A stretch of 34,009 nucleotides of DNA from positions 1-34,009 of the forward strand of contig FCNA01000103.1 of NCBI GenBank assembly GCA_900018345.1, in the 5' to 3' direction. Below, one piece after another: positions 6,650-33,993 of this stretch (positions within the stretch are counted from its first letter, which is position 1; each line of letters begins with the position of its first letter). Below the pieces are notes generated by a model. It did no database searches. It saw nothing but the letters and a program-made list of their open reading frames with translations, and was not told the DNA's origin. This DNA comes from Clostridiales bacterium CHKCI006. GTDB taxonomy: Bacteria > Bacillota_I > Bacilli_A > Erysipelotrichales > Coprobacillaceae. Made by a program: the position numbers and the translations under genes.

Positions 6650-7657
6650 TCACGGTTGCACATATTGATTCAGGGCAGCTTGAAGCCTTTCTATACAAAG
6701 CTGTCGTAATGAGAGTGGTGAAAGTACCTCAATTTGACTGCCCATCATCAATATCCAGGATATTAATCCTTCTGAAATCTGAAAATCCTGCAGCAGAATG
6801 ATCGGATCCCCGTTTTCTGCGCGTGATAAAGGATGTTCCGAACCAAATTGGTCGATAACAGCCTTAAAGATGGACTGATGAAAACGTAAACGTACATCCG
6901 CAAAACGATCACCGATAAACATATTAACTAGTTGTGCCTTGAGTTGTTCAATATCGATATTCTCCGGTTTCTCGATAAATGGTTCCTGGCTGCTACGCAC
7001 TTTATCCATACGATCCAGACGATACACGGTCAAGTTATCTGGATGTTTTTCATTATACCCGACCAAATAATATTGTCCTTTGGCCATCACAAGTTCATAT
7101 GGACTCACTAAATAAGTCTGATGTCGTGGATCGCGACTGTAATTGCCATGATTCCGAACTCTTTTCACAAGATGAAGCCCTCTCCCATCATCTTTTAGAT
7201 CATAATCAAGATACTCAAACAGAAGTGTCTTCTGCATCCGGATCGCTTTAGCAATTGTCGTCAGACGTACAAAAAGTTCTGCTGTCGGTCCCTTCTCCAC
7301 TTTTTGATCTTCAGGCTGATAAGGCATACCGGCCAGTTTGGCTAATTTCGCTTGCAAAACATTTTTCTCAACCTGATTCAATAATGGTGAGAACCGAATA
7401 TGATCACTTAAGAAAAGCTGCTCCCCTTCACTAAACAACGGATGCATAATCACATACCCAAATTTGTGGACTGAGGTAATAAAGGGTTCTTCACAGCCTA
7501 ACCAGTCAAAAAACTGATTGATCTGGCGAACATAGGTATAAATCGTCTTAACATCCAGTTTTGTGCCTTCTGCTTTCAGACGCGCCTGTATTTTCGGCGC
7601 ACTGATGGGCTGATGGTCATAAATACAATTTAATACTTTAACTGCTTTTTCATGCAT
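6650..7657 (-). CDS. WYL-domain transcriptional regulator
   Basis: The N-terminal ~60 residues form a winged helix-turn-helix (MHEKAVKVLNCIYDHQPISA onwards, with VKTIYTYVRQINQFF as the recognition part). The centre (about 135-225) is a WYL domain: LLFEYLDYD, then YLVSPYELVMAKGQYYLVGY and VYRLDRMDKV. WYL domains sense ligands, often nucleotides or single-stranded DNA, and control DNA-damage or defence genes in many bacteria. AAGGAG lies 8 bases before the ATG. The start is inside the end of the upstream gene (28 bases overlap), so translation is probably coupled. It may act on the inverted repeat at 8326-8358. Confidence 0.88.
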   Translation of the reverse strand: MHEKAVKVLNCIYDHQPISAPKIQARLKAEGTKLDVKTIYTYVRQINQFFDWLGCEEPFITSVHKFGYVIMHPLFSEGEQLFLSDHIRFSPLLNQVEKNVLQAKLAKLAGMPYQPEDQKVEKGPTAELFVRLTTIAKAIRMQKTLLFEYLDYDLKDDGRGLHLVKRVRNHGNYSRDPRHQTYLVSPYELVMAKGQYYLVGYNEKHPDNLTVYRLDRMDKVRSSQEPFIEKPENIDIEQLKAQLVNMFIGDRFADVRLRFHQSIFKAVIDQFGSEHPLSRAENGDPIILLQDFQISEGLISWILMMGSQIEVLSPLSLRQLCIERLQAALNQYVQP

Positions 7658-8313
7658 ATGAACTGCTCCTTCCGTTCCTTAAAACGATCCAGCCAGCCGG
7701 TCTGCTGTGTTTGAAAAGCCGCCCGGTAAAGTCTCGGGTTATTCTCTGCCAATTCAAAATGGTAATCACGCACAAAGGAAGCATGGATCCCTTTTTCAAT
7801 ATAATCCCAGGCCTTTTGATAGTCACATTCCAGTAAATAAATTTCCAGATCGAACACATCCTGAACATCCTCGATACCATCGAGCATCGCACGGATCTGA
7901 TTTAAAAAATGACGACGGGTAAAGCGATTGAATTTCAGTAAATGACGGATCACGCAATACTCATCTGTTGTCAGATAATCCGTCACATTGGTCATGATTG
8001 TTTTGTATAATTCATTCTTATAAGTCTCATAAAGACGATACCGGCGTCCTAAAACCAGATTCATCCAAACCAGGATCTTCTCTGTCTGCCCTAGATGTTC
8101 AGCTTGGTCGATACAATGCTTTCCATAATAGAAAATTTCTCTGCGAAAACGTTCTTTCGCTCTGATCTTCGTCTGAATTTCATCCAATGAGACTGAATAG
8201 AGCAGCGCCAGGCAAAGCGCCTCATCCTGATAGTGTCTGGCAACCTCATAAAGCATGTTCTTCAGCTCACAGATATCATAATCATACATTTCGCTAAAAG
8301 ATTTTTTCTTCAT
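7630..8313 (-). CDS. Unknown helical protein encoded with the WYL regulator (227 aa)
   Basis: I do not recognise a family. The protein is soluble, rich in Tyr, Arg and Leu, and predicted all-helical, possibly a TPR- or HEAT-like repeat (repeated motifs such as YNxLYKT, YLLECDYQKAWDYIEKG). ATG 8313 has AAGGAG 8 bases upstream; the frame stays open a few codons further but those lie in the promoter. Its last 28 bases overlap the WYL regulator gene, a strong sign of an operon and of joint function. It could be a cofactor or sensor partner of the regulator, but that is only inference from the overlap. Confidence 0.8.
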   Translation of the reverse strand: MKKKSFSEMYDYDICELKNMLYEVARHYQDEALCLALLYSVSLDEIQTKIRAKERFRREIFYYGKHCIDQAEHLGQTEKILVWMNLVLGRRYRLYETYKNELYKTIMTNVTDYLTTDEYCVIRHLLKFNRFTRRHFLNQIRAMLDGIEDVQDVFDLEIYLLECDYQKAWDYIEKGIHASFVRDYHFELAENNPRLYRAAFQTQQTGWLDRFKERKEQFICMKKQLKY

Positions 8314-8325
8314 TTCAATCACTCC

Positions 8326-8358
8326 TTCTACACTTTTATTATACACAAAAGTGTAGAA
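8326..8358. promoter_or_regulatory. Perfect 12-bp inverted repeat around a -10 box: likely operator
   Basis: Arms TTCTACACTTTT (8326-8337) and AAAAGTGTAGAA (8347-8358) are perfect inverted copies with a 9-base spacer. The spacer begins with the minus-strand -10 hexamer TATAAT (8338-8343). A dimeric repressor bound here would block RNA polymerase from the 7630-8313/WYL operon. The repeat lies only about 13 bases upstream of the start codon and ends next to the ribosome site, so an effect on the mRNA leader is also possible. Confidence 0.75.
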
Positions 8359-8379
8359 CGATGCGTTTGAGAAATTGTT

Positions 8380-8415
8380 TTAAACTCCGTTTTTTTGGTG
8401 TCTAAAACAGTTTAA
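8380..8415. repeat. Inverted repeat TTAAACT ... AGTTTAA
   Basis: Perfect 7-bp arms at 8380-8386 and 8409-8415 with a 22-base spacer, in the space between the WYL operon and the divergent asparagine-synthetase-like gene. It may be a second regulatory site, but 7-bp arms in AT-rich DNA can arise by chance. Confidence 0.35.
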
Positions 8416-8491
8416 CATAAATTTTTTAAAAAAGAAAGACCAGCAGGCATGCATTGCTTGACTAGGGCATAGAATGAAACGAGGTGATGTT

Positions 8492-10273
8492 ATGAGTGCA
8501 ATCTGTGGAATTGCCAATTTTCAGTCTGAGATCCATATCCCAGCATTTCAAAAGAGCCAGCAGGCTTTAAAAGCCCGTTTTACAAAACCGACAGCCGTAT
8601 TAGAAAAAAAGCATCTGGCGTTAGCCTGCAGTGAAGGAATCGAATCCCATGTCTATCAGGGGAAAACGTATACAGTAGGCTTTTTTGGACGTTTGCGTAA
8701 CGAATCCAAATTACGTCTGGAATTGCAGAAGACCTACCCTGAAGCACAACATGTGACGCTCCCCCACCTGATCTTGTTAGCTTATCTCGCCTATCAAGAA
8801 GCATGTGCCGATCATATGGATGGTGCTTTTATCATTGCGTTATGCGTTGATCAGCGTCTGATTCTGATCAGGGATGCCTTAGGTGTGAATTCGCTATATT
8901 ATAAACTCGACCAGGGGACACTTTACTTTGCCAGTGAACTGAAAGGTCTGCTTGTTCACGAACAACAGCATCGCGTGGATAAAACAGGTCTTTGGATGCT
9001 TTTAGGTATCCTGCCTGCACTCGTTCCTGGACAAACACCTTACCATGGTATTTTTTCACTGAGACCCGGTCACTATTTAATCTACGAAGATCAAAAAGTG
9101 AAGACAGAGCGCTGGTGGCACATGACAACTCAGCAAAACACCAAACCTAAAGAAATGATCAAGCAGGAACTCCATCAAATGATTACCGAGTCTATTTTGG
9201 CCGATATGCCTGAAGATAAAACTTCCTGTTTCTTATCCGGCGGTTTGGATTCCAGTCTGATTGCTGCAGTTTGCCAAAATCATAGCCATCAGCCTATCGT
9301 CACCTATTCGGTGGATTATGAAGATCAGGCTCGGTATTTCCATTCCTACAGTTATCAGACGACACGGGATAATGACTATATTCAGGAAATGTGCGAACAG
9401 TACCCATTCCAGCACCGCTTAATGACCATCAAACAGAAAGCGCTGATTGAAACCCTGGAGACAGTCATGAAAGCACGTGATCTGCCAGGCATGGTTGATA
9501 TTGACAGCAGTCTCTATCTCTTTAGCCAACGAATCAGTCAGGATACGCATTGTATTCTTTCTGGCGAATGTGCAGATGAAATTTTTGGCGGATATCCCTG
9601 GTTCTATAAAGAGACTCTTTATACATCTGACTACTTCCCCTGGACTACGCAGGTTGCCGATCGCTTAGCTCTGTTTAAAGATGAGACAACGCGTCAGGAA
9701 GTTGAGCGCTATATGCAAGAATGCAAACAGCGAAGCTTAGACGAGATCAATCAGCTTGATTCAGATCCTGAGAATGCTCGAAAACAACAAATGATGTATC
9801 TGACCATGGAATGGTTCATGCAGACCTTGCTGGTACGCGGGGATGTCTTAGGTGGTCTATGCGATTTAGAAATTCGCATGCCTTTTGCCAATAAAGCAAT
9901 CGCTGAATACGTCTGGAACGTTCCTTGGCACATTCTTTATGCCAATCAGGAAGAAAAAGGATTGCTCAGGGAGATTTTTGAAGACATTCTGCCTGCTTCT
10001 GTCGCACATCGCAAAAAAAATCCGTATCCGAAAACACACTCCCCTGTTTATACAGAGCTTGCCTGTGCAAAACTAAAGAGCGTGCTGGCTGACCCGCATT
10101 GCCGCTTACAGGAAATTTTCGATATGCAAGCCATCCAACAGCTTTTAGACAGCCAGGGAACCAGCTTTAAGAGTCCATGGTATGGACAATTAATGACCGG
10201 TCCACAACTGATCAGTTATCTTTATACGATCAATCAATGGTTAAATGATTATCATATTATTCTAGATGACTAA
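8492..10273 (+). CDS. asnB: Asparagine-synthetase-like amidotransferase with degenerate glutaminase domain
   Basis: Two-domain AsnB architecture. The C-terminal synthetase domain is intact in appearance: ATP pyrophosphatase loop SGGLDSS at 249-255 and GECADEIFGGYPWFY further on. The N-terminal class II glutaminase domain is odd. The nucleophile cysteine is residue 5 (MSAICGI) rather than residue 2. The glutamine-binding loop, normally NGEIYN, reads FGRLRN at 65-70, so the key Asn and Glu are replaced by Phe and Arg. The HRRLSI-type arginine segment is also not recognisable. The later RDALGVNSLYY is normal. It may therefore use ammonia directly, or amidate another substrate, unless a short propeptide is removed and the loop still works. 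GAGGTG sets ATG 8492. The next gene, 44 bases on, is a sugar deacetylase. Confidence 0.85.
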   Translation: MSAICGIANFQSEIHIPAFQKSQQALKARFTKPTAVLEKKHLALACSEGIESHVYQGKTYTVGFFGRLRNESKLRLELQKTYPEAQHVTLPHLILLAYLAYQEACADHMDGAFIIALCVDQRLILIRDALGVNSLYYKLDQGTLYFASELKGLLVHEQQHRVDKTGLWMLLGILPALVPGQTPYHGIFSLRPGHYLIYEDQKVKTERWWHMTTQQNTKPKEMIKQELHQMITESILADMPEDKTSCFLSGGLDSSLIAAVCQNHSHQPIVTYSVDYEDQARYFHSYSYQTTRDNDYIQEMCEQYPFQHRLMTIKQKALIETLETVMKARDLPGMVDIDSSLYLFSQRISQDTHCILSGECADEIFGGYPWFYKETLYTSDYFPWTTQVADRLALFKDETTRQEVERYMQECKQRSLDEINQLDSDPENARKQQMMYLTMEWFMQTLLVRGDVLGGLCDLEIRMPFANKAIAEYVWNVPWHILYANQEEKGLLREIFEDILPASVAHRKKNPYPKTHSPVYTELACAKLKSVLADPHCRLQEIFDMQAIQQLLDSQGTSFKSPWYGQLMTGPQLISYLYTINQWLNDYHIILDD

Positions 10274-33881: not shown

Positions 33882-33993
33882 GACCTGGCAGCTAGCTATC
33901 TTCGCACCGTAGCACTATTGTCGCCGTGATGATGCTTAACTTCTGTGTTCGGGATGGGAACAGGTGTGTCCATCATGCTATCACTACCAGATC
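33882..33993 (-). rRNA. rrf: 5S ribosomal RNA
   Basis: On the minus strand the highly conserved CCCATCCCGAACACAGAAGT core is present near the middle, followed by TTAAGC. The ends GATCTGGTAG and CTGCCAGGTC pair as helix I with G-U pairs, giving 112 nt. A TTTTTATTTT tail follows. The 23S gene must lie just right of the window, so this is the distal end of an rRNA operon. Confidence 0.95.

Follow-up and report, generated by a model that had tools for sequence, protein, structure and literature searches.

A conserved upstream dyad and a predicted DriD-like WYL activator in the orf1-wyl operon of a gut Firmicutes family

WYL activators and the orf1-wyl operon

DriD of Caulobacter crescentus activates repair genes on binding single-stranded DNA (ssDNA), outside the SOS response, has a pseudo-palindromic target of about 20 bp and sites that overlap the -35 element, and exerts no control on its own gene (PMC12340889). 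In mycobacteria, the DNA damage response is activated by the WYL regulator PafBC, a heterodimer of two WYL proteins which has ssDNA as its ligand, acts at a -26 motif and enables RNA polymerase to work at special promoters (PMC11804915). The locus described here lies in a window of 34,009 nucleotides, meaning the whole stretch of DNA that was analysed, and differs from PafBC in having a single WYL protein, together with an upstream dyad and a helical partner, encoded by orf1, that is unrelated to it. The operon comprises the following features:

6650..7657, minus strand: WYL regulator, 335 aa, with a winged helix-turn-helix (wHTH) at about 1-72, a three-helix bundle at 77-140, WYL at 144-223 and WCX at 236-333
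7630..8313, minus strand: orf1, 227 aa, all-helical, partner gene of wyl, with a 28-nt overlap with wyl
8322..8327, minus strand: ribosome-binding site AAGGAG of orf1, read from the sequence

Both the WYL and the WCX families of Pfam score above cut-off in the WYL protein, and its structural model (pLDDT 86.9) has the layout of DriD (8TP8, 8TPK, 7TZV, 9PFQ), with an N-terminal wHTH followed by the three-helix bundle, WYL and WCX. The best Foldseek matches are PafBC and DriD (E about 1e-10), and a second look gave a Z of 12.7 to the DriD C-domain, where the rmsd of 16.4 over 181 residues arises because the domain orientations differ. BrxR and CapW, which are repressors beside phage-defence genes, are likewise WYL regulators with an HTH, and BrxR has been solved on DNA. 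However, their fold match is weaker than that of PafBC and DriD, and the conserved dyad at this locus lies upstream of the -35 region.

The orf1 protein, which most likely starts at the ATG at 8313 rather than at an upstream GTG, has no match in Pfam or NCBIfam and none convincing in the PDB. It is all helical with no WYL match, and so is not a second WYL subunit; no such partner is mentioned for DriD in the available part of its description. Relatives of the WYL protein are present in 42 of 43 family genomes, and the orf1 and wyl pair was recovered, in unchanged order, at 39 loci. The named relatives, recovered with an alignment as query, are Thomasclavelia, Faecalibacillus, Candidatus Stoquefichus, Longibaculum, Massilimicrobiota, Kandleria, Sharpea, Eggerthia and Beduini, which we take together to be the Coprobacillaceae of GTDB. 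The uncharacterised orf1 is thus consistently paired with the WYL gene within the family, and adjoins none of the WYL relatives found outside it (L216-L228).

A conserved dyad at a fixed distance upstream of the -10

Upstream of orf1, the promoter contains three elements:

8338..8343, minus strand: -10 hexamer TATAAT of the orf1-wyl operon, with an inferred start near 8331
8360..8363, minus strand: CATC element, 20 bp upstream of the first -10 base, at the expected place of a -35
8378..8407, minus strand: conserved dyad, predicted operator, with an 18-bp core at 8384-8401 whose centre is 49 bp upstream of the -10

The dyad reads TTTTAGACACC-AAAAAAAC-GGAGTTTAAAA, with the core CC-N8-GG, and begins 20 bases beyond a 12-bp inverted repeat discussed in the last section. 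Its clearest form upstream of orf1 in relatives is TTTTAACACCG-N6-CGGTGTTAAAA, and the dyad conserved across the family promoters, a predicted target site, is 18-22 bp long. With the -10 picked from the ribosome-binding site alone, and hence independently of the dyad, 33 of the 39 operon promoters have an exact CC-N8-GG at 48-51 bp upstream of the -10 and one more has it at 57 (Eggerthia, with an ambiguous -10), with none at any other distance between 15 and 99; the exact form is missing from the remaining five (L021, L028, L038, L052 and L054). At the offset of the CATC element, CAT occurs in 18 of the 39 promoters, with a conserved C at -20. No sigma-70 -35/-10 pair is found in 8300-8500, leaving the window promoter without a -35 match.

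With a transcription start about 7 nt downstream of the -10, the centre of the dyad would fall at about -61, and positions near -61 are the usual place of binding for class I activators. The dyad is clear of the -10 and the start and lies upstream of the -35 region, away from where a repressor would obstruct the promoter. A constant upstream distance of about 49 bp from the -10 and the missing -35 match point to activation and not repression. The length of the predicted site resembles the pseudo-palindromic target of about 20 bp of DriD. However, DriD sites overlap the -35, whereas the dyad centre here is 48-51 bp upstream of the -10. Since the site does not overlap the -35, the WYL protein is classed as DriD-like and not as a DriD orthologue. 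The -35 overlap and the lack of self-control in DriD, and the heterodimer and -26 motif of PafBC together make this system a variant that is orthologous to neither.

The reading that we favour, with a probability of roughly two in three, is that the WYL protein acts as a DriD-like activator on its own operon and on a small DNA-damage-type regulon, with binding, activation and the damage signal as the parts that we infer. A WYL dimer would probably bind at 8378-8407, where the centre of the dyad is about 61 bp before the start, and would bring RNA polymerase to this promoter, which combines a good -10 with no -35. By analogy with DriD and PafBC, the closest solved relatives, ssDNA arising after DNA damage would switch the protein on. 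Because the WYL protein would activate its own promoter, the orf1-wyl operon is proposed to be positively autoregulated. The original prediction had correctly placed the -10 box and the operon containing the WYL gene, and had suggested negative autoregulation; autoregulation is probably right, but repression finds no support in a conserved dyad about 49 bp upstream of a -10 that has no -35 match.

It is unlikely that the WYL protein binds this dyad and represses its operon, with induction by release, as BrxR and CapW would suggest. These WYL repressors have related folds and autoregulation by repressors is common, but the dyad overlaps neither the -10 nor the start, the distance from its centre to the -10 is nearly constant, no -35 match was found, and the top fold matches, DriD and PafBC, are activators.

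Other genes behind the site and the near-absence of LexA

The 30-bp element at 8378-8407 is unique in the window genome. The core followed by 40 bp and TATAAT occurs there three times without mismatch, at the orf1-wyl operon and at two IS1595-type copies at contig ends (this two-copy element has as its homologue in G003 a gene for an IS1595 transposase), and the perfect site is limited to these places; the 300 bp before the addB gene of this genome show none. Across the 43 genomes, the tripartite pattern with at most one mismatch gave 61 matches against 12 in the reversed control, so that about 12 of the 61 are expected noise; 17 matches are exact. Genes behind the site include addB in two genera (G010 and G019), sbcD (G010), a Y-family polymerase (G034), a resolvase (G033), a WYL paralogue (G036), a JetD-like Wadjet gene (G019), several IS1595 transposases, and a phage-tail module in G037 and G038 and in two IMG/VR contigs. 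In Sharpea (G030 and G031), a variant site, AATCC-N8-GGATT, is common to the orf1-wyl and addB promoters. Most repair targets are limited to one or a few genera; addB, sbcD, the Y-family polymerase and others, which have the site in some genera, are candidate members of a repair regulon such as that of DriD. No viral contig matches the tripartite pattern at 49-bp spacing, the phage copies having 50 bp. A polysaccharide gene, a symporter (L103) and glpK (L137) may be chance matches; the latter two, a CRISPR-like repeat (L083) and matches inside genes were set aside as chance-like.

At residue 38 of the HTH, 33 of the 39 WYL proteins have T, S or A, and the six with N or E go with GTCC-, GACC- or ATCC-type half-sites. 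This association, which spans about three lineages, is suggestive and fits binding of the dyad by the WYL protein. A dyad that precedes many genes could also belong to an unrelated regulator of repair and mobile genes, of which the WYL gene is merely one target. However, the dyad stands before orf1-wyl in nearly every genome while its other targets mostly occur sporadically, and changes in the WYL HTH go with unusual half-sites, so that such a regulator is improbable.

Strong matches to the LexA DNA-binding domain (PF01726) occur in only two of the 43 family genomes (G037 and G038), in short frames of 96 and 80 aa; the window genome and the others gave only weak HTH matches in a search where the LexA of Caulobacter was matched as positive control. 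The family differs in this from Caulobacter, which has LexA. No paper on LexA loss in this family was found in the literature searched. The predicted targets are alike in kind to those of the LexA SOS response (error-prone polymerase, recombination, mobile elements), whereas LexA itself is a repressor. The sequences themselves establish that the dyad is conserved, that its spacing is fixed, that it recurs before other genes and that LexA is nearly absent. As the dyad also stands before DNA-repair and mobile-element genes in a family mostly without LexA, the WYL protein is probably the DNA-damage activator of the family. Under this DriD-like activation, the switch would turn on genes for DNA-end processing and for repair in some relatives, and would have been acquired by IS1595 elements and by phage-tail modules.

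A broader proposal, to which we give a little less than even odds, is that LexA has been lost from this entire family of gut Firmicutes, and that a WYL activator, together with an uncharacterised helical partner, runs the family's response to DNA damage as well as some transposons and phage-tail particles from a promoter of three parts (upstream dyad, CAT element and -10). If true, gut commensals such as Thomasclavelia, Faecalibacillus, Stoquefichus, Sharpea and others would answer DNA damage by WYL activation and not by LexA derepression, which would account for the triggering of repair, transposition and phage-tail induction in these organisms. It would also offer a defined promoter for testing a further mode of cooperation between WYL activators and RNA polymerase.

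Several of the elements behind the site have features of their own. An IS1595 transposase gene (L265:46-1106) has a host-type predicted operator in its own promoter, and promoters of this type are found at two contig ends of the window genome (C39 and C128) and at several other IS1595 elements of the family. In G019 (L269:410-2997), the site is followed by the JetD-like Wadjet defence gene and then by a second gene. Two contigs that look like phage, 12.8 and 14.3 kb long (L274:1-12791 and L275:1-14317), have the promoter type ahead of a tail module encoding a major tail protein and further tail proteins. Among the ORFs scanned in L274, the sole head-related match is weak and falls on a protein that also matches a tail family; the module is possibly a phage-tail-like particle. 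The L083 locus is a CRISPR-looking repeat array (translated repeat LRAVQNYTPLK), probably a chance match to the operator pattern. A protein of 52 to 54 aa (MKYAVVDGKLTHVNK..., L128:727-888), with no family match, lies behind the site in three genomes (G035, G036 and G041).

The 12-bp inverted repeat around the -10

8326..8358, minus strand: 12-bp inverted repeat around the -10, with arms at 8326-8337 and 8347-8358, lineage-specific

The perfect inverted repeat that had been reported here is confirmed with exact coordinates: the arms TTCTACACTTTT (8326-8337) and AAAAGTGTAGAA (8347-8358), separated by the spacer ATTATACAC (8338-8346), bracket the minus-strand TATAAT at 8343-8338. Scanning for arms of at least 12 and spacers of at most 20 finds two perfect repeats in the window, where Markov-simulated windows give a mean of 0.07, and when the local 181 bp were simulated, 0.17% of the runs reached a repeat like that at 8326-8358. 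The repeat overlaps AAGGAG (8327-8322). In the gene strand its right arm runs into a conserved string of start site and ribosome-binding site, and the conservation seen under that arm exists because these lie there. Reading the repeat as an RNA hairpin was rejected, the gene-strand left arm being upstream of the inferred start, and Rfam has no match at the repeat.

In a search upstream of orthologues, set beforehand as the test of conservation, the repeat was not kept, because pairing at its offset from the -10 equals background: 31% of cells against 30% (sd 4%) at other offsets, in 38 orthologous operon promoters exclusive of that of the window. That this repeat serves the WYL protein as operator in negative autoregulation, as first proposed, is very improbable, since, although it is perfect, rare by chance and placed on the -10, neither its sequence nor its dyad is conserved in these promoters and a genome scan found no second copy of the arm AAAAGTGTAGAA anywhere in 3.33 Mb. 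It is better seen as a species- or lineage-specific addition, perhaps a site for another regulator.

The small regulon that had been proposed along with this operator is probably right. Its supposed hint, the 9-mer TTCTACACT at 1724-1732, is present but was rejected as a regulon member, the window containing 10 matches with at most one mismatch against 6.4 +/- 2.4 expected by chance. Near the contig end, a 5S rRNA gene occupies 33883-33991 of the window on the minus strand.
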